From assembly GCA_026996295.1 (NCBI GenBank), contig JALWLL010000006.1:1-64000 (forward strand): a stretch of 64,000 bases of DNA, written 5' to 3'. Under the pieces are notes generated by a model that did no database searches, was not told the DNA's origin, and saw nothing but the letters and a program-made list of their open reading frames with translations. A program made the translations under genes and the position numbers. The first letter of the stretch is position 1; each line of letters opens with the position of its first letter. Below are positions 36,512 to 64,000 of this stretch, one piece after another. This DNA is from Sulfurimonas sp. (GTDB lineage: Bacteria; Campylobacterota; Campylobacteria; Campylobacterales; Sulfurimonadaceae).

Positions 36512-37516
36512 TTATTTGATATTTTCAGCCCAGTACTCGCGTATCATAGTTTTGGTAGCTTCTGGAAGTGGGATATACCCCAGTTTTTTCGCAGATTTGT
36601 CACCGTTTTTAAATGCATAGTCAAAAAATGCGATCACTTTTTTGTTCATAGCAGGTTTCTCTTTTGGTAAAAGGATAAACGTCGCTGCCACAATAGGGTA
36701 AGATCTATCACCCTCCTGCAGTGCCAACATTGCATAGAAGTTATCTTTTTTGGTCCAGCTTGCATATTTTGCGGCAGCTTTGAAGTTCTCTTCATTGGCA
36801 ACTACCCATTTACCGCTTGCTGTTTGCAATACCGCTGCACTTAAGTGGTTTTTCTCCTTGTAGGCATGCTCAATATAGCCTATAGCATAAGGTGTTTGTT
36901 TTACAAGATTTGCAACACCTTCATTCCCTTTTCCACCGATACCGACTGCCCAGTCAACTGCTTTTCCCGTACCAAAGTTATTTTTCCAGTTTTTTGAACT
37001 TCCACTCAAATAATATGTAAAGTTATACGTCGTACCGCTTCCGTCTGAACGGTGCACAACGATGATCTTTTGGTTTGGAAGTTTTAAACCTTTATTGTCC
37101 GCAACAATAGCCGGATCATTCCAGTGTGTGATCTTACCGGCAAAGATATCTGCAACAACAGAGTTTTTAAGTTTAAGCGTCTCATCTGCGATACCATCAA
37201 CATTAAAAGCGATAACAATAGAACCGATAACAGCCGGAAACTGTAAAAGTTTTGCTTTTGCAAGTTTTTTAGAGTTCAGTGGTTTGTCAGATGCACCAAA
37301 GTTTACGATACGTTGAGTGATCTGCTTGATCCCTCCACCTGAACCTATAGACTGATAATTTACACGGTTTTTTGTATCTTTTTTATATGAGTAAGCCCAG
37401 TCGTAATAAAGTGGAGCCGGGAAAGATGCACCTGCACCGTTGATCTTGTCCGCTGCAAAAGAGGATGTAGCAGAGATGGCTGCAATTATTGCCAGTGAAG
37501 CTAGTTTTTTGAACAT
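36512..37516 (-). CDS. pstS: Phosphate ABC transporter substrate-binding protein
   Basis: INGAGASFPAPLYYDWAYSYKKDTKNRVNYQSIGSGGGIKQI, VVHRSDGSGTTYNFTYYLS. Confidence 0.96.
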   Translation of the reverse strand: MFKKLASLAIIAAISATSSFAADKINGAGASFPAPLYYDWAYSYKKDTKNRVNYQSIGSGGGIKQITQRIVNFGASDKPLNSKKLAKAKLLQFPAVIGSIVIAFNVDGIADETLKLKNSVVADIFAGKITHWNDPAIVADNKGLKLPNQKIIVVHRSDGSGTTYNFTYYLSGSSKNWKNNFGTGKAVDWAVGIGGKGNEGVANLVKQTPYAIGYIEHAYKEKNHLSAAVLQTASGKWVVANEENFKAAAKYASWTKKDNFYAMLALQEGDRSYPIVAATFILLPKEKPAMNKKVIAFFDYAFKNGDKSAKKLGYIPLPEATKTMIREYWAENIK

Positions 37517-37558
37517 GATAAATCCTTATGTTTTGATTGCGAAAGTATAAATCCTCAA

Positions 37559-37576
37559 TGTAACATTATGATTACA
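37559..37576 (-). promoter_or_regulatory. Pho-box-like site for pstS
   Basis: Minus strand TGTAATCATAATGTTACA; 9 bp before -10-like TATACT (37544-37549). Confidence 0.65.
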
Positions 37577-37591
37577 GCTGATAAACAATTT

Positions 37592-37609
37592 GGTAACCGT
37601 TATGTAACC
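37592..37609 (+). promoter_or_regulatory. Pho-box-like site for pstCAB-phoU
   Basis: GGTAACCGTTATGTAACC (GTAACC repeats, 11-bp period); 9 bp before -10-like TACAAT (37619-37624). Confidence 0.65.
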
Positions 37610-37651
37610 AAACTTTTTTACAATTGCGAACTTTTTTAATGGAGAGACATC

Positions 37652-38512
37652 TTGGGTATTATTATAGATAGAGTTTTTGCCAATCTGACAAAAATTATTG
37701 CAGTTGCCGTACTACTTTTAGTTGCTTGGATCTTTACTGTACTTCTTCAGCATTCCATGAACTCTATAGAGTATTTTGGTTTTGACTTTATTACAGAATC
37801 AAAGTGGGCACCAAACCTGGAAAAATTTGGTGCACTTCCTGCAATATACGGATCGGTGCTTTCAACATTTTTAGCAATGATACTTGCAGTTCCTCTCGCT
37901 ATCGGTGTTGCAATTTTTCTAAGTGAGATCGCACCCGCAAAGCTCAAATCACCTGTAGGTGTCTCCATAGAGCTTCTTGCGGCTATCCCTTCTGTTATAT
38001 ATGGTATGTGGGGTTTATTCTATTTTGTGCCTATTATTCGTGATGCCTTTGGCGGCATCGGGATCTCCATGCTAACAGCGGGTATTGTGCTCTCTATTAT
38101 GATTTTGCCTTTTATGGCGGCAGTTACTCGTGATGCTATGAACACAACGCCGGATATTTTAAAAGAATCAGCATATGCTCTTGGGGGAACCAAATGGGAT
38201 GTGATCAAAGATATTGTTATCCCTTATGCAAAAGCCGGTATCATCGGCTCATTTATCTTAGCTCTTGGCCGTGCTATAGGTGAGACGATGGCAGTTACCT
38301 TTGTTATGGGTAATGTTCATAAGATCTCAACCGATCTGCTCCAACCGGCAACATCGATACCGGTAACTTTGGCAAATGAGTTTACAGAAGCAGATACTGA
38401 TCTGTACTATTCTTCTTTGTTTGAGCTCTCACTCATACTGCTTGTGATCAGCTTTACTATTATCTCTATCGCAAAATTTTACTTCCTTAGAAGAACAAAG
38501 GTGGCATCATAA
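37652..38512 (+). CDS. pstC: Phosphate ABC transporter permease PstC
   Basis: TTG start; binding-protein-dependent permease motif ALGRAIGETMAVTFVMGN. Confidence 0.94.
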   Translation: MGIIIDRVFANLTKIIAVAVLLLVAWIFTVLLQHSMNSIEYFGFDFITESKWAPNLEKFGALPAIYGSVLSTFLAMILAVPLAIGVAIFLSEIAPAKLKSPVGVSIELLAAIPSVIYGMWGLFYFVPIIRDAFGGIGISMLTAGIVLSIMILPFMAAVTRDAMNTTPDILKESAYALGGTKWDVIKDIVIPYAKAGIIGSFILALGRAIGETMAVTFVMGNVHKISTDLLQPATSIPVTLANEFTEADTDLYYSSLFELSLILLVISFTIISIAKFYFLRRTKVAS

Positions 38513-39354
38513 TGACTCATACTCAAAAACGTATCATTATAAACAATGTAGTGATGGTTCTCTCTACTCTTTCAGCCCTCGTTGGGATAGGTTTTTTATT
38601 TTGGATACTCGGCGTTTTGGTAATGAATGGCATAGATGCTCTGAGCTGGAATATTTTTACCCAAGAGGGAGCACCTCCGGGCTATGAAGATAGTGGGTTA
38701 AAACATGCTCTGATCGGTCAGTTTATGATCGTTGGTGTTGCTACACTTTTTGGTGTACCGCTTGGAATTTTAGCGGGAACATACCTCAGTGAGTATGGAC
38801 AAAAATCCAAGCTTGCCGAGACCATCCGTGATATTTCAGATATCATGATGTCAGCACCGAGTATCGTTATAGGTGCTTTTGTTTATGCCATCGTTGTTGC
38901 ACCTATGGGGCACTTCTCAGGATGGGCAGGTTCTGTTGCACTCACTATTATCATGTTACCGATTATTTTAAGAACGACCGATGATATGCTTCAACTTGTT
39001 CCATCAACACTTCGTGAAGCGGCATTTGCACTCGGTGCTCCAAAGTACAAAGTGATCTTACAGGTTGTGTACCGTGGAGCAAAAGCGGGGATCCTTACAG
39101 GTATCTTACTCGGTGTAGCACGTGTTGCAGGTGAAACCGCACCACTTCTGTTCACATCGTTTAATGACAATTTTTTAAACACGGATATGATGGAGCCGAT
39201 GGCATCACTCACCGTAACAATGTACAATTATGCAACAAGCCCTTATGAAGACTGGCAAAAGCTTGGCTGGGCTGCAGCATTTATACTGAGTATGTTTATC
39301 TTAAGTTTAAACATACTTGGAAGATTATTTATTATGAAAAGGAAAGGCAAATAA
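38512..39354 (+). CDS. pstA: Phosphate ABC transporter permease PstA
   Basis: [59 protein letters not shown]. Confidence 0.95.
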
Positions 39355-40139
39355 TGGCAACTATTGTAGATATTACACAAGAAAAAGCACTCGAAGTGAA
39401 TAATTTTGAGTTTACTTACGCATCTGCCGATGCACCAAGCATCAAAAAACTTGACATGCCTATAGCAAAAAACAGCATCACTGCACTTATTGGGCCATCA
39501 GGCTGTGGAAAAACAACACTTCTGAGAAGCTTTAACCGTATGCATGATCTTTACCCAGGCAATAAGTATGATGGGGAGATCCTCTTTAAAAACAGAAATA
39601 TCTTAAGTCCAAAAGAGGACCTTATCAAGCTTAGAATTCAGATAGGGATGATCTTTCAAAAACCCACTGCATTTCCTATGAGTATCTTTGACAATGTTGC
39701 TTACGGTATGAGGCTTCAGGGGATTAAAAACAAAACGGAGCTTGCAGACAGAGTGGAAAAAGCGTTGCGTGACGCTGCTATTTGGAAAGAGGTAAAAGAG
39801 AGACTCAAACATGATGCAAACGGTCTCTCGGGTGGTCAACAACAACGTCTTTGTATTGCCCGTGCCATTGCAGTTGAACCGGAAGTTCTCCTTTTTGATG
39901 AGCCGACATCAGCACTTGACCCTATCTCTACTGCGGGTATTGAAGAGCTTGTCGTTGCACTCAAAGAGCAGGTCTCCATCATCATAGTTACCCACAATAT
40001 GCAGCAAGCCGCCAGAGTAAGTGACTATACAGGTTTTATGTACCTTGGCGAACTCATAGAACTTGGACATACCGAAGAGCTTTTTGTAACACCAAAAGAG
40101 AAGCTTACAGAAGAGTATATCACCGGTAAATTTGGTTAA
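39354..40139 (+). CDS. pstB: Phosphate ABC transporter ATP-binding protein
   Basis: [56 protein letters not shown]. Confidence 0.97.
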
Positions 40140-40171
40140 TCAGAAGAAAAAGAAACGTAAAGGAAGAATAG

Positions 40172-40843
40172 ATGTCAACAAAGTATGATAACAAAATTGA
40201 TGAGATCAGAGGGCTTATCTCCGGACTTTTAGAAAATATTGTCACAGCAAACCAAATCTCTTTAGAAGCTTTTCAATCACATGAAGAAAAAGATTTTAAA
40301 GCGGTTCAGGAAAAACTGAACAATATCACTGTTCAAGGTGATATTATAGACAATGAGATCATTAAAACCTTTGCTCTTTTTGGCCCTGAAGCCAAAGAGC
40401 TGAGAACCTTGGTCGCTTACCTTAAGATGACGAATGAGATTGTTCGTATCGGTGTAGGTATAAAAAAATATACACGCCGTATGAGGGAACATACAAACAG
40501 TGAACTCGATCTTACACCACTAAGCAGTACCATACTTCAACTGCATAAAAGCACACTAAAAGCACTTGAATATATTTTGGAATGTTTCCAAGATCTTGAT
40601 GGATGCAACGCAGAAGAGTACTATAGAAAGGTGATGGTTGAAGAGAGTAAAAATGATGATATGTTTTCCATATTAGAAAAAGAGATCATGACATTGATCA
40701 TAGAAGAGAGAGAACTTTCACCCGAATATGTAAAAGTTTTAGGAACACTTCGCAAACTTGAACGCTCTTGTGACAGAAGTGTCAATATAGCCAACCTCAT
40801 GCTTTATGCCAAAGAGGGTGGAGAGATACGCCTCTACAGCTAA
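40172..40843 (+). CDS. phoU: PhoU-family phosphate regulator
   Basis: PhoU-like helical protein directly downstream of pstB. Confidence 0.85.
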   Translation: MSTKYDNKIDEIRGLISGLLENIVTANQISLEAFQSHEEKDFKAVQEKLNNITVQGDIIDNEIIKTFALFGPEAKELRTLVAYLKMTNEIVRIGVGIKKYTRRMREHTNSELDLTPLSSTILQLHKSTLKALEYILECFQDLDGCNAEEYYRKVMVEESKNDDMFSILEKEIMTLIIEERELSPEYVKVLGTLRKLERSCDRSVNIANLMLYAKEGGEIRLYS

Positions 40844-57141: not shown

Positions 57142-57624
57142 CTAGAGATTACTTGAGAGCATAACGCCCAAAAAGATAGCGATAATGCCTAAGACAATGT
57201 TTACAGGCACCATATATTTGCCGATAAGTTCCAAAGAGAACTTTGCACCTACCATATCACCCTGATCTAAAAGTTTTACGGCACGATTACGACGGATGAT
57301 CATAAACACAAGATTTATACTCATAATGGCCCAAATCGCCTCTTTTATATGCCCTATCCCGCTATAAGGCGTATGTTTGAGATCATACCCCACAAGCATA
57401 ATCACCGCCGTTACAAGCAGTATGACAACAAAAGGAAGCACAATACTAAAAAGTCTTTTCAGTGTATGAGCAATCCTCTCGAGCCTGTGTGCAGGAGAGT
57501 CTATCTGCATAAATGACTGGTGCGCCGCAAAACGTATGGCGATCATTCCGCCAACCCAGATAACAGCTGAGAGCACATGCAAAAAAACGATGATCACTTT
57601 ATACTGCGCAAAAAATTCAGCCAT
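57142..57624 (-). CDS. CopD-like integral membrane protein
   Basis: Four TM helices; FLHVLSAVIWVGGMIAIRFAAHQ. Confidence 0.7.
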   Translation of the reverse strand: MAEFFAQYKVIIVFLHVLSAVIWVGGMIAIRFAAHQSFMQIDSPAHRLERIAHTLKRLFSIVLPFVVILLVTAVIMLVGYDLKHTPYSGIGHIKEAIWAIMSINLVFMIIRRNRAVKLLDQGDMVGAKFSLELIGKYMVPVNIVLGIIAIFLGVMLSSNL

Positions 57625-60173
57625 TACGAAAGTATCTCACTTATATACTTGAGTGCTTCCTCTTTTGCCTGTGGCAGTTTGGAAGTATCTTTTCCCCCGG
57701 CTTGGGCAAAATCTGCCCGACCACCACCGCCGCCGCCCAAAACAGGTGCTATCTTTTTAATCCAATCACCCGCTTTTGCATCAGCACCCTTAACACCGGC
57801 TGCTATAAGTACCTTCTCCCCTTTGATTTGAAAAAGCATGGCACACAGTTTGTCGTTTTTGTTTTTCAGCTCATCGATTTTCTCTTTAATATCACCACTT
57901 GGCAACTCTTCAACCACAACCGCAACACCGTTGATATCATTGGCTTTTATCTCAACTTTTGCACTCTCTTGAGCCTCTTTGAGTTCAGATTTGAGTTCAC
58001 TTATGTTTGATTTGAGCCTATTGATACCCGCAAGGATATCAAGGTTTTTCAACTCACTCTGTGCTCTCTTTAGAAGTTCCCTTTGCCCACTGAAGTATTC
58101 ATATGCCGCGTAACCACATACAGCTTCTATGCGGCGAACACCTGCACTCACTCCACTCTCTTTGGTAATGATAAAAGAGCCTATTTTTGCAGTGTTATCC
58201 ACATGAACACCTCCGCAAAACTCGATGGAGGCATCTGCAAAACTCACAACCCTTACTTCCTCACCGTACTTCTCGCCAAATTGAGCTTTTGCACCGCTTT
58301 TTTTAGCATCTTCAATACTCATAATCTCTGTTTTTGCATCAATTCCACGCGCAATTTCATAGTTGACACGCTGTTCGATCTCTGCAAGTTCCGCCTCACT
58401 TACGGCTTTTGGATGGGAAAAATCAAAGCGTAAACGCTGTGCTTCCACCAGTGAACCCGCTTGAGATATATGCTCCCCAAGAACATCAAAAAGTACAGCA
58501 TGAAGCAGGTGAGTGGCGGAGTGGTGCTTTGTGATCTCATCTCTTGAGATATCGACAATACTCTCAACTTTATCACCAACATGCAACTCTTTACTCAGCT
58601 CTATATACGAAAGATTTAATCCAAAGAATTTTTTGGTGTCAAGCACTTTTGCCACATCTTTGAGCTCCCCTGTATCACCACATTGTCCACCACTTTCAGC
58701 ATAAAACGGGGTAGTATCCAAAAGCACCCAACCTTTTGAGCCTGCACTGAGTTTTTGTGTGGTTTTATACTCCTCACTCAAGAGTGCAAGTACTTTTGAA
58801 GCATACTTTACATGCTCATAGCCCACAAAACTATTCTCGCCAAACTTCTCTAAAAGCTCTTTGAAATCACCATGAACAGCTTCATCACCACTTCCTCTCC
58901 AAGCAGCTTTTGCACGCTCTTTTTGTGCATTCATAAGTGCATTGAACTTCTCACTATCAAGCTTAAGCCCTTTTTCGCGAAGCATATCTTCTGTAAGATC
59001 AAGAGGAAAACCAAAAGTATCATAAAGTTTAAAAGCAACTTCACCGCTAAAGATCTCACGTGTATTTGTAAGCTCATCATTGAAAAGTGCTATACCGGAT
59101 TCAATGGTTTTGAAAAAACGTAGCTCTTCGAGTTCTATTTGCTCTTTCACAACAGTAGATTTCACTTCAAGATAATCATACTCTTTGCCCATAATCGCTA
59201 CTACTGTATCGACAAGTTTATACATAAAAGGTTCACGAAATCCTAGAAGGTAGCCGTGTCTGACGGCACGACGAAGAATTCTGCGAAGAACATATCCACG
59301 CCCCTCATTTGAGAAGTTCACATTTTGTGCAAGTAAAAAGAGCACTGTGCGTATATGATCGGCTATGACGCGGTACGATGCACCACTTTCGTATGCGTAT
59401 TCTTTGCCGATAAGTTTCTCAACTTGGTTGATGATAGGCATAAACAAAGAGGAGCCATAGTTGGAAAGCGCTCCCTCTTTAATCGCAACAACACGCTCAA
59501 GTCCCATTCCAGTATCGATCGATGGTTTTGGAAGCGGTGTCATCGTCCCGTCACTACTGCGCTCATACTGCATAAACACAAGGTTCCATATCTCTAAAAA
59601 TCTGTCACCCTCTCCACCAAGATAATCTTCCTCACCACAAAAGTGCTCAGCACCTTGATCAAAGAAAATTTCCGAACATGGTCCGCACGGTCCCGTATCG
59701 CCCATCTGCCAAAAGTTGTCTGCATCACCCAAACGCAAGATACGCTCTTTTGCAACATGTTTAAGCCATAGTTTTTCCGCTTCATCATCACTTTCATGGA
59801 TCGTTACCCAAAGTTTTTCAACCTCAAATTGCAGAACTTCAGTAATAAACTCCCATGCATAATCGATCGCTTCTTCTTTAAAATAATCACCAAAACTAAA
59901 GTTACCAAGCATCTCGAAAAAAGTATGATGACGTGCCGTATGACCAACGTTTTCCAAGTCGTTGTGTTTTCCACCCGCACGAATACATGTTTGACACGAC
60001 GTTGCACGAGGATTTTGCGGTGCCGGCACCTCACCTGTAAAAATTGATTTAAAAGGAACCATTCCTGCATTGTTAAAAAGGAGAGTAGCATCATCTGGAA
60101 CTAAGGGTGCAGACGGAACTCTTGCATGATTTTTTGATTCAAAAAACTTTAAAAACTCTTCTCTAATGTCCAT
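57624..60173 (-). CDS. alaS: Alanyl-tRNA synthetase
   Basis: [59 protein letters not shown]. Confidence 0.98.
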
Positions 60174-60261: not shown

Positions 60262-61272
60262 CTATTTTTCATGGCACTTGCTGCACAGACCCATAACAGT
60301 TTTAGCTCGAATAAACGAAGGGGAATTGGAAGCGTGAGGTTCATGACAACTTACACAGCTAAGCTCTCTGTCTTTTCTTGTAGGATCTTTTTTTCCTCTT
60401 ACCGGATGGATTTTTTTGGAATATGTTCTGATGATGTGTGAACCGTTTATCTTATCTTTATGGCATGAAGTACACAGATCAAATTCCGGTCTTCTAAGAT
60501 AGTTTATCTCATCGGAACCGTGAGGATTATGACATTTGTTACATCTGCCGGAGTCCACAGGTTCATGTTTAAAACGCTCTTGTGCCCATTTTTTCTTTGT
60601 TTTTTTATGGCATGTCAAACAAACAGTACCGATCGGATCTGCAACTGTATATTTACTTTTATTAACATCAAACCTGTTGTACTTACCAACTGTCCCGTTA
60701 TGGCACGATGTGCACAACCAGTTCACTGTTGGGGCATGAGCATGTTTTTTATACCCAATCGGTTTGTGGCATGTATAACAGTTTGATTTGCGAACATCTT
60801 CAAAAGCTACACCTTTAATCTCATTCACACTCATATCATGACATTTTGCACACTCTTTTTCGTTTTTTTCTTTATGAAAATAGTTATATTCAAACTTTAA
60901 AGGGGGATATTTAAATTGTTTATACACCTTGGAGGTATAGTAAACATTTTGCTTGTACTCTTTTAGAAGTGTATCACCCTGATACGCTTTAACATAAATT
61001 TCATTATCACCAAGATGAATAGGAATATTTTTACAGTAATACTCTTTATTGCCTATAATATCCTGCGTATAAGTAAGATTCTCGTCTGTTGTTATACTTA
61101 AGAGATCAGTTACATTGGTATCTACTTTGACAACAATAGCCACCATATTTTCATCGTGAACATCTGGCTTGTTTGGTGTAATCACCTTAAATACATCCAA
61201 AGCAAATGTACTCGAGCTTATTAGTGCTACAAGCACAAAATAGTTCAAAAGATAAGATCTCATCATCTGCAT
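60262..61272 (-). CDS. Secreted octaheme c-type cytochrome (8 CXXCH), doubled-CXXCH type
   Basis: CAKCH, CYTCH, CTSCH, CLTCH, CNKCH, CTSCH, CVSCH, CSKCH counted; signal peptide; N-terminal beta-rich domain. Confidence 0.92.
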   Translation of the reverse strand: MQMMRSYLLNYFVLVALISSSTFALDVFKVITPNKPDVHDENMVAIVVKVDTNVTDLLSITTDENLTYTQDIIGNKEYYCKNIPIHLGDNEIYVKAYQGDTLLKEYKQNVYYTSKVYKQFKYPPLKFEYNYFHKEKNEKECAKCHDMSVNEIKGVAFEDVRKSNCYTCHKPIGYKKHAHAPTVNWLCTSCHNGTVGKYNRFDVNKSKYTVADPIGTVCLTCHKKTKKKWAQERFKHEPVDSGRCNKCHNPHGSDEINYLRRPEFDLCTSCHKDKINGSHIIRTYSKKIHPVRGKKDPTRKDRELSCVSCHEPHASNSPSFIRAKTVMGLCSKCHEK

Positions 61273-61275
61273 ACC

Positions 61276-62244
61276 CTACCTTTTCTCTTTTTTATCTCGT
61301 TGATCATCTTTGTCCCGTAAGAAAAATGGTCTGTTGGAGGCATGAGGATTATGACAATCAACACACTCTTTTGTCTTATCTATCCCACCTTGACACTCAG
61401 AGTTATCTAATTCTCTTGCTTTAATATGTTTGTCTTTATGACAACCAAGACATATCTCATCCACAGGTTTTCTTACAAACTTGCTGTAAGGACTAGAGTG
61501 TGGATTATGACATTTATTACAGTTTCCGGAGTCCAAGGGCTCATGTCGGTATCTGGCCTTACTCCATTTTTTATAATTGCTTTTATGGCATTTAAAACAC
61601 TCCTGATCTACCGGTTGTGCCGCCAAGTATTTTGAACGCCCCTGGTTTTGCATGTTTTCCACACCTGCTTTACCGTTATGACAAGCGCCACACAGCCAGT
61701 TAACAGCCGGAGCATGCCCAAATTTATCCTTTGTTATATGGCTGTGGCATACATAGCAATTTGATTCTTTGACATCGATAAACGCCACGTTTTTGATCTC
61801 ATTTGAGGTCATCTTGTGGCACTTTTTGCACAGGGCTTCATTTGTATCTGTATGAAAAAAAGTCTGTTTGTACTGTATTGGTGGGTATCTAAACTCATAG
61901 AAGATATCGGATGCCACATACATTCTTGCAATTTGCTCATCAACCATTTTCCCATCTTTGTAAGCCCTGATAGTTACTCTGTTCTCACCGAGACGAAGTA
62001 AAATATTTTTACAGTTCATAGTTGCTGTTTTACCTATTTTTACACTCTTTTCCTCTATAGATGTAATTATTTTTAATTCATCTACTTTAGCAGGGGTAAC
62101 TTTTACGACTATATTGATTGTTGCTTCACGATGCAGGGAATAATCTTGAGGGGAGAGGATCTGAATGAGATTTTCTTTTGCTAGCAGATTTACGGAACTT
62201 AAAAGCATAAGTACCGTAAAGACAAAACACTTCAACCGCCTCAT
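61276..62244 (-). CDS. Secreted heptaheme c-type cytochrome (7 CXXCH), paralog of 60262-61272
   Basis: CKKCH, CYVCH, CGACH, CFKCH, CNKCH, CLGCH, CVDCH counted; signal peptide. Confidence 0.92.
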   Translation of the reverse strand: MRRLKCFVFTVLMLLSSVNLLAKENLIQILSPQDYSLHREATINIVVKVTPAKVDELKIITSIEEKSVKIGKTATMNCKNILLRLGENRVTIRAYKDGKMVDEQIARMYVASDIFYEFRYPPIQYKQTFFHTDTNEALCKKCHKMTSNEIKNVAFIDVKESNCYVCHSHITKDKFGHAPAVNWLCGACHNGKAGVENMQNQGRSKYLAAQPVDQECFKCHKSNYKKWSKARYRHEPLDSGNCNKCHNPHSSPYSKFVRKPVDEICLGCHKDKHIKARELDNSECQGGIDKTKECVDCHNPHASNRPFFLRDKDDQRDKKEKR

Positions 62245-63755
62245 CGTCCTATCCCTTTGGGCTCAAATCGGTCATATTCAAACTTTTTATGACAAGCCGG
62301 AGCACATGAGCCACCGGTTCCCGTATCTATATAGCGCAGAGGAAATTTCACTCCATTAAAGTCAGTATAACTTCTAATCAGATGGGTATATTTAGAAGCG
62401 TGAACATCATGACATGCTCTACACGTTCTTCCCTTTCTGTCATTTACATGAAGATAGTGCAGATTCACATCACCATCTCTAAAGTTTGTGATATTACCAT
62501 CTTCAGTATATTGCATACTTACTTTTTTCTCTTCATGACATTTAAAACAGAAAAAGTCTTTATTCTCAAAGTTATCATAGAAGTTTTTCGTAAATGACTT
62601 TCTCAAAATACTAAAGTTATTAGAACCATGAGGATCATGACATGCGCCACAGCCACCATCCTTTCCATTTGGTTCTTTTATAGGTTTATGCCAATTTGGA
62701 TTCTCTTTGAGATGTTTCTTGATATTAAGAAGCATACCGCCGTCTTCATCCGATTTCACTTGCTTATCGTGACACTGCAAACATGTTGCCACAGGATTTT
62801 TCTGAAGCAGTTTTTTATACTTTGTCGCATGTGGGTTGTGGCACTCAAGACAGTGTTTTTTACTTGTGTTGACACCGCCATGTTTGTACTTAGAGTCATG
62901 TACCTTATCACCTATCTCATCATGACAATCAAGGCACAGATCCATTTTCCCATCAAAATGCAGGAGTGATTTATACTCAGCAGTATGCGCATCATGACAC
63001 TCTAAACAATTTTTCTTCACAATCGGTTTATGTTTTACACGAAGGTTCATGTTAACAAATTTCTTTTTCGCCTTATCTTTAAAAGAACTCGATCTGTCAT
63101 GACATTTCAAACACAAGTTATTCACAGAATCTGCTTTGAGTAATTTTTTTGTATTGGACTGATGAGGATCGTGACAATCCATACACTTACCGTCTTTAAC
63201 AGGTTTATGATCAAACTTTTTCGTATAGCGCGTTTTATGACAACCATAACAGATATCGACTATATTCTTTTTAACAAGCTCTCCCGGTTTGTTATGCTTA
63301 GAAGTATGGCATATTTTACATGCTCCCATTTTAAATGGTTCATGTAAATATTTTTTAAGAGGTTTAAATTTATCTGGAAGGGCATCAAGACTCACAAGTT
63401 GAGCTTTCTTGATCTTTGTTTTAGTGTGGTGTACCACCTCTTCTTCTCTAATCTCATCAAGAGCTATCTCTTTAGGCACTTTTTGCGCTTCAAGCAATGC
63501 CTTGACCTTTGCTTCTTTTTTTCTGTCAATAGAGCTTTTAAACTCATTTGCCAACTTAGTCACATTGATATCTTCAAGCTCTTCATCACTAATGTTATAA
63601 TCAAAATCTTCATAAGCATGTTTTGCCGTTGAAAGACTATAAGTAATATTACCTACAATAGTAGCAAATTTAGCAAGTTTTTCAGCAACACCATAATGTT
63701 GAAATGTAAATATTCCTACTGCAACAATCACAAGTAGTATTACCAATTTTTTCAT
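62241..63755 (-). CDS. Membrane-anchored multiheme c-type cytochrome (11 CXXCH plus one CX3CH)
   Basis: CKICH, CYGCH, CMDCH, CLKCH, CLECH, CLDCH, CLECH, CLQCH, CGACH, CFKCH, CRACH, CAPACH counted; uncleaved-looking N-terminal TM. Confidence 0.92.
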   Translation of the reverse strand: MKKLVILLVIVAVGIFTFQHYGVAEKLAKFATIVGNITYSLSTAKHAYEDFDYNISDEELEDINVTKLANEFKSSIDRKKEAKVKALLEAQKVPKEIALDEIREEEVVHHTKTKIKKAQLVSLDALPDKFKPLKKYLHEPFKMGACKICHTSKHNKPGELVKKNIVDICYGCHKTRYTKKFDHKPVKDGKCMDCHDPHQSNTKKLLKADSVNNLCLKCHDRSSSFKDKAKKKFVNMNLRVKHKPIVKKNCLECHDAHTAEYKSLLHFDGKMDLCLDCHDEIGDKVHDSKYKHGGVNTSKKHCLECHNPHATKYKKLLQKNPVATCLQCHDKQVKSDEDGGMLLNIKKHLKENPNWHKPIKEPNGKDGGCGACHDPHGSNNFSILRKSFTKNFYDNFENKDFFCFKCHEEKKVSMQYTEDGNITNFRDGDVNLHYLHVNDRKGRTCRACHDVHASKYTHLIRSYTDFNGVKFPLRYIDTGTGGSCAPACHKKFEYDRFEPKGIGR

Positions 63756-63808
63756 CTGTGTTACCTTTATCTATACTAGAATTATATTGCTACTATTATA
63801 GTTTAATC

Positions 63809-64000
63809 TTATTTAAATTTTCCTACAGGACATCTTTTTTCGATTACTTTATTACGAAGTAGTTTCTTTCTGTCCGCCTGGTGAGGTGAATGACATTTAT
63901 TACAGTCAAGTGCAGCCATACGCTTATCAATATGTTTCTTTGGTTCATGGCAGGTGTAACAAAGCTGCGCAACAGTATGCGTTGTAATAGCTGCAGGCTT
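63809..64000 (-). CDS. C-terminal part of another multiheme c-type cytochrome (runs off right edge)
   Basis: Reverse strand reads ..LCYTCHEPKKHIDKRMAALDCNKCHSPHQADRKKLLRNKVIEKRCPVGKFK*; two CXXCH in the visible part. Confidence 0.85.
   Translation of the reverse strand, partial: KPAAITTHTVAQLCYTCHEPKKHIDKRMAALDCNKCHSPHQADRKKLLRNKVIEKRCPVGKFK

Follow-up and report, generated by a model that had tools for sequence, protein, structure and literature searches.

The results presented here indicate that five multiheme cytochrome genes, designated A to E and arranged as a tight operon in a Sulfurimonas-like draft genome of 2.1 Mb, are likely to form the inner-membrane and periplasmic input arm, fed by menaquinol, of an OmcE-type extracellular electron-transfer system whose outer half would be carried by a second contig. 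The stretch of DNA analysed, hereafter the window, comprises the first 64,000 bases of the 72,856-base contig C6, and the operon extends across its end. The last gene of the operon, E (60262..61272), encodes a 336-aa soluble octaheme cytochrome with a signal peptide and an N-terminal Ig/FN3-like domain. It is preceded by D (61276..62244), encoding a 322-aa soluble heptaheme paralogue of E, by C (62241..63755), encoding a 504-aa membrane-anchored doubled-CXXCH-type cytochrome with a heme-free spacer of ~120 aa, and by B (63809..64324 on the contig, of which 63809..64000 lie inside the window), encoding a complete 171-aa membrane-anchored triheme cytochrome that resembles the beginning of C. All four genes are on the minus strand. 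The first gene, A, lies upstream of B and outside the window, at 64337-64975 of the contig, and encodes a 4-heme protein of the NapC/NrfH type.

The earlier note, made from the window, had described four same-strand genes separated by a 3-bp gap (E-D), a 4-bp overlap (D-C) and a 53-bp gap (from C to the next stop, at 63809), and these coordinates, strands and spacings proved exact. Its heme counts of 8, 7, 11(+1) and at least 2 agree with the 8 motifs of E, the 7 of D, the 11 CX2CH and one CX3CH of C and the three of the complete B; with the 4 motifs of A, the operon totals 34. The membrane anchor and heme-free stretch of ~145 residues that it attributed to one protein are found in C, whose first motif lies at residue 146, and the heme-free, beta-rich N-terminal domain that it described is modelled in E as a confident Ig/FN3-like beta sandwich spanning residues 28-112 (pLDDT about 90-98). 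Beyond A, the contig carries on its plus strand genes read from sequence as an SLR-type protein, a c-type cytochrome with two heme motifs and a lipoprotein, followed on the minus strand by a CcsBA-type cytochrome c synthase (names such as CcsBA being readings of the sequence, not library matches) and, at the end of C6, by the C-terminal part of a large cytochrome. Elsewhere in the window, positions 36512-40843 hold what appears to be an ordinary phosphate-uptake cluster (PstS, PstC, PstA, PstB and PhoU-like).

Chance clustering of heme motifs was ruled out by composition shuffles, which yielded a mean of ~0.04-0.07 motifs per protein and a maximum of 2 in 2000. The CX3CH motif of C (CAPACH, residue 484) is present as CAPACH, CQPACH or CSPACH in every full-length orthologue, and this conservation argues that the twelfth motif is real. 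Since the D-type proteins of relatives also have no eighth motif, the heptaheme shape is conserved and D was rejected as a frameshifted octaheme; B, which parallels the first part of C in sequence, was likewise rejected as a truncated gene, its short shape being conserved in relatives. Foldseek matches to E were confined to FN3-like modules aligning with the N-terminal beta domain and name no function. The profile built on D, E and G, a paralogue of D and E described below, matches the chain that we read as MtrA (6r2q_A, E=1.3e-20). This chain, which matches multiheme profiles, is labelled 'Cystathionine beta-synthase' in the solved-structure library and 'Structure of the Mtr complex' in the fold library. 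Against the DmsE/MtrA-type model TIGR03508, C, its paralogue F and a further paralogue on contig C35 score 105-128 bits, below the cut-off of 192. The C35 protein, a cytochrome of 378 aa with 11 CX2CH motifs, is 44% identical to C, and its gene stands alone among housekeeping genes (L011, 8016-9152); a similar lone gene occurs in two closed genomes of the genus, G301 and G309.

As judged by its sequence, A is a member of the NapC/NirT quinol dehydrogenase family. It scores 114.5 bits against PF03264 (cut-off 24.1) and has a membrane anchor and four CXXCH motifs, of which the first takes the form CXXCHxM; the motifs are conserved in 25 orthologues, CXXCHxM in all of them. Among NCBIfam models its best likeness is NrfH, at 76.1 bits against an equivalog cut-off of 134.2, so that A is not assigned to NrfH, and it also falls below the NapC and TorC cut-offs. 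A known nitrite, tetrathionate or hydroxylamine reductase system, which the earlier note had named as the finding that would overturn its reading, was not encountered: the locus holds no reductase gene, NrfA (PF02335) was not found in the window's genome, and C, D and E contain neither CXXCK nor any CXXC followed by a residue other than H. Octaheme nitrite reductase is matched over partial stretches only, and this reading was rejected together with those of tetrathionate reductase and hydroxylamine oxidoreductase. The genome does encode a NapA that scores over its cut-off (contig C31). A search of the same genome for SoxB returned no match, which is unexpected for a Sulfurimonas-like genome.

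Two of the absences that the earlier note recorded for the window cease to hold beyond it: past position 64000 the quinol-dehydrogenase-type A heads the operon, and the other half of the locus encodes a barrel and OmcE-like cytochromes. Its broader proposal, an envelope electron-transfer chain in which soluble carriers work with a membrane-anchored hub, fits all of the findings. Contig C25 encodes F (47% identical to C) and G, together with a tetraheme protein, a lipoprotein of the NHL type, a PPIase and a barrel-like protein of 619 aa; it stops inside a second NHL gene, NHL2. In the intact loci of relatives, this outer half comprises 12- and 8-heme cytochromes, an OmcE-like tetraheme cytochrome, NHL propellers, a PPIase, a barrel, a ~700-aa cytochrome and CcsBA. 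A full-length match links the tetraheme family to 7TFS, the OmcE filament subunit (E=1.5e-35 for the profile and 6.4e-12 for the window genome's own sequence), and a second tetraheme entry, 9yuq, is matched as well; by this full-length similarity and its four CXXCH motifs, the C25 protein is classed as OmcE-type. The first ~215 residues of the ~700-aa cytochrome, as encoded in the closed genome G040, also match OmcE (E=1.8e-27).

The barrel protein of the window's genome has no match in Pfam or NCBIfam. An orthologue (L084) is predicted to form 28 strands (pLDDT 85), and the best solved-structure match of this model is MtrB (E=2.4e-11, TM 0.42). Because other large barrels score close behind, the likeness is general, and the model lends good support to a large outer-membrane barrel and none to an MtrB homologue. 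The orthologue model and the gene neighbourhood thus place a predicted large outer-membrane barrel beside multiheme cytochromes, as in porin-cytochrome systems. Among the proteins scanned, none matched TIGR03507 (the MtrC/OmcA-type outer decaheme) over its cut-off. An assignment to the OmcS/OmcZ filament type is likewise unsupported, as OmcS (6ef8) matches the D/E/G profile over 23 residues only, and neither C nor the ~700-aa cytochrome matches it.

Two genomes of the same genus, G351 and G345, carry the complete locus of ~25 kb on one contig. In the window's genome, C25 and C6 correspond to G351 gene by gene and on each flank, and break inside genes that are neighbours in the intact locus, C25 inside NHL2 and C6 inside the large cytochrome gene; on this basis the two contigs are very probably adjacent across an assembly gap, which would span roughly 2.5-3 kb and contain the remainder of NHL2 and the bulk of the large cytochrome gene. 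Closed genomes of the order (G040, G090 and G077) carry the same set, namely monoheme c, F, G, tetraheme proteins, NHL, PPIase, barrel, NHL2, ~700-aa cytochrome, CcsBA and SLR genes, with A-E on the opposite strand. The two halves lie together in G040 and G090 and ~80 kb apart in G077; in G347, they are separated by 540 kb and both still present. In loci from other families of the order (L042, L045, L047, L054, L058 and L060), genes for a putative sensor, a response regulator and a histidine kinase lie between the G and tetraheme genes, a trio absent from that position in the window's genome.

In G351, G345 and, by inference from contig adjacency, the window's genome, the locus lies between alaS (57624..60173 of the window, minus strand), a conserved flanking gene outside the system, and an aldehyde dehydrogenase gene (L010, 8393-9820). 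The same interval measures 65 bp in G304, holds other, unrelated genes in five other closed genomes, and in the closed genomes G301 and G309 contains the outer half without A-E. It is thus a lineage-variable site of the genus, in keeping with gain and loss. The G301 and G309 loci also include a second, split ResB/ResC pair and a gene for a very large secreted repeat-like protein (1473 aa in G309, L163 8616-13037; 1755 aa in G301, L164 8661-13928).

Across 299 genomes of the order, 15 have the Ig-cytochrome family and 17 the OmcE-like family, and the two genomes that make up the difference are only 82% complete; among the 250 that are near-complete, both families occur in the same 12 (Fisher 1e-20, kinship ignored). 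The Ig-cytochrome count takes in G, itself a member of the outer half, and the distribution of C against F within the genus therefore provides a sharper test. With kinship again ignored, C is present in 12 of 135 genomes and F accompanies it in all 12; a further five genomes harbor F without C, and A was not found in any of these five. A-E thus goes with the outer half, and the outer half does not always go with A-E, a one-way dependence. Genes of the A, C and D/E types occur in named relatives that include Sulfurimonas, Sulfuricurvum, Hydrogenimonas and further MAGs of the Campylobacterales. Among named organisms, the closest counterpart of the window's C comes from a Sulfurimonas MAG (77% identity over tree columns), for which reason we treat the host as Sulfurimonas-like. 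Outside this phylum, Persephonella and another member of the Aquificota belong to the same set of relatives, with C at 43-44% identity, and have barrel and NHL genes as well. On a quick tree in which some joins are uncertain, C and F each have an Aquificota branch beside the campylobacterial one, suggesting that the split between C and F probably predates the exchange between Campylobacterota and Aquificota. Contigs of the Geobacteraceae harbor more distant F-like, G-like, NHL, tetraheme and NHL genes in that order.

Gene content, heme counts, homology to OmcE, linkage in relatives and the dependence of C on the outer half are the sequence evidence on which we base the assignment of A-E as the likely input arm. 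From these we infer the order of electron flow, its outward direction, the acceptor and the formation of filaments. In the proposed scheme, A would oxidise menaquinol, the anchored B and C would draw the electrons away from the membrane, and D and E, the soluble proteins with Ig domains, would ferry them over the periplasm. F, G, the large outer-membrane barrel, the NHL propellers and the PPIase would then provide the passage across the outer membrane to OmcE-like cytochromes outside the cell, from which the electrons would probably reach a solid acceptor, such as Mn(IV) or Fe(III) oxide, or a partner cell. Mn(IV) oxide is a plausible acceptor by analogy with Ca. Sulfurimonas marisnigri, which oxidises sulfide with MnO2 (PMC9122950). 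The presence of the outer half without A-E in two closed genomes indicates that donors other than A-E are possible. What cytochrome filaments do physiologically is disputed (PMC11077965), and a Geobacter mutant in GSU0616, the probable counterpart of G and not of A-E, retained metal reduction (PMC1829397), a result that counts against the main reading. We also consider it possible, though doubtful, that A-E forms a fixed bridge over the periplasm, in which the 12-heme C, spaced off the membrane, would feed Ig-domain octahemes docked on the outer-membrane complex, in place of the small diffusible PpcA-type carriers of Geobacter, and that the ~700-aa cytochrome, whose first domain resembles OmcE, serves as a new base or cap joining the barrel to an OmcE-type filament in the Campylobacterota and Aquificota.

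Multiheme conduits are able to run both ways, and the same components could instead take in electrons from Fe(II), metallic iron, sulfide minerals, an electrode or a partner such as cable bacteria, with A passing them to menaquinone or to a periplasmic reductase. The hosts are close to chemolithoautotrophic Sulfurimonas, the NapA of this genome offers a possible sink, and transcription of multiheme genes by a Sulfurimonas MAG coincided with an abundance of cable bacteria (PMC11748539); nevertheless, the protein at the head of the operon is of a quinol-oxidising type (NapC/NrfH), and OmcE homologues have been connected with the reduction of Fe(III) oxide (PMC12307469), so that electron uptake appears unlikely.

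A different proposition, that A-E feeds a soluble periplasmic reductase encoded elsewhere and is a mere neighbour of the outer half, draws on the fact that NapC/NrfH-type heads commonly serve such enzymes and on the likeness of A to NrfH. Given the lack of a reductase gene in the locus, of NrfA in the genome and of CXXCK in C, D and E, and given that F accompanies C wherever C is present among the 135 genomes, even where the two halves are as far apart as in G347, we regard it as improbable. More improbable still is that A-E merely supplies reductant for the maturation or secretion of outer cytochromes: the locus does contain CcsBA, the PPIase and NHL propellers, and an eight-gene block of Geobacter has been linked to OmcS maturation and secretion (PMC12977616), yet 34 heme motifs from the quinol dehydrogenase onward go far beyond that need, and the outer half, with CcsBA, is present without A-E.

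The individual parts of this locus are of known kinds. In the literature searched, which consisted mostly of open-access journal papers, we found neither a campylobacterial OmcE or nanowire locus nor the complete arrangement with its own quinol-dehydrogenase operon and unrecognised barrel. A Sulfurimonas MAG that expressed multiheme genes beside cable bacteria presented no complete porin-cytochrome set, leading its authors to propose 'an undetected porin' (PMC11748539). The locus described here is a candidate for all of the missing parts, with a quinol dehydrogenase, periplasmic carriers, a large barrel missed by Pfam and NCBIfam and OmcE-like outer cytochromes. It could explain how Sulfurimonas-type bacteria breathe minerals and makes the route testable in the Campylobacterota. 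Since the same outer half occurs in nature both with and without A-E, one can ask which donor feeds an OmcE-type system.

Like CymA, NrfH and NapC, A combines one membrane anchor, four hemes, a CXXCHxM first heme and a PF03264 match; it differs from them in falling below the NrfH, NapC and TorC cut-offs, in being followed by B-E and in lying in a locus without an NrfA or Nap partner gene. The locus shares with MtrCAB and other porin-cytochrome complexes a large barrel and doubled-CXXCH cytochromes, whereas no MtrC/OmcA model is matched at cut-off and the barrel has 28 predicted strands against the 26 of MtrB. A parallel in gene order is the Geobacter OmcE locus (gsu0615-0616-0617 and omcE, GSU0618): the tetraheme cytochrome is homologous to OmcE over its full length, and the F-like, G-like, NHL, tetraheme, NHL order of the Geobacteraceae contigs is that published for the surroundings of omcE in G. 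sulfurreducens (PMC1829397). The quinol-dehydrogenase operon A-E, the barrel, the PPIase and the ~700-aa cytochrome are additional here. Likened by description, the OmcS maturation and secretion block of Geobacter (GSU2493-2500) similarly sets accessory genes next to a filament-type cytochrome (PMC12977616). Likened in the same manner, a 19-gene cluster of Deferribacter, tied to Fe(III) reduction in vent bacteria, is also reported to be an island of inner-membrane, periplasmic and outer-membrane multiheme cytochromes and, unlike the locus described here, contains a formate dehydrogenase in the Fe(III)-reducing species (PMC13186404).
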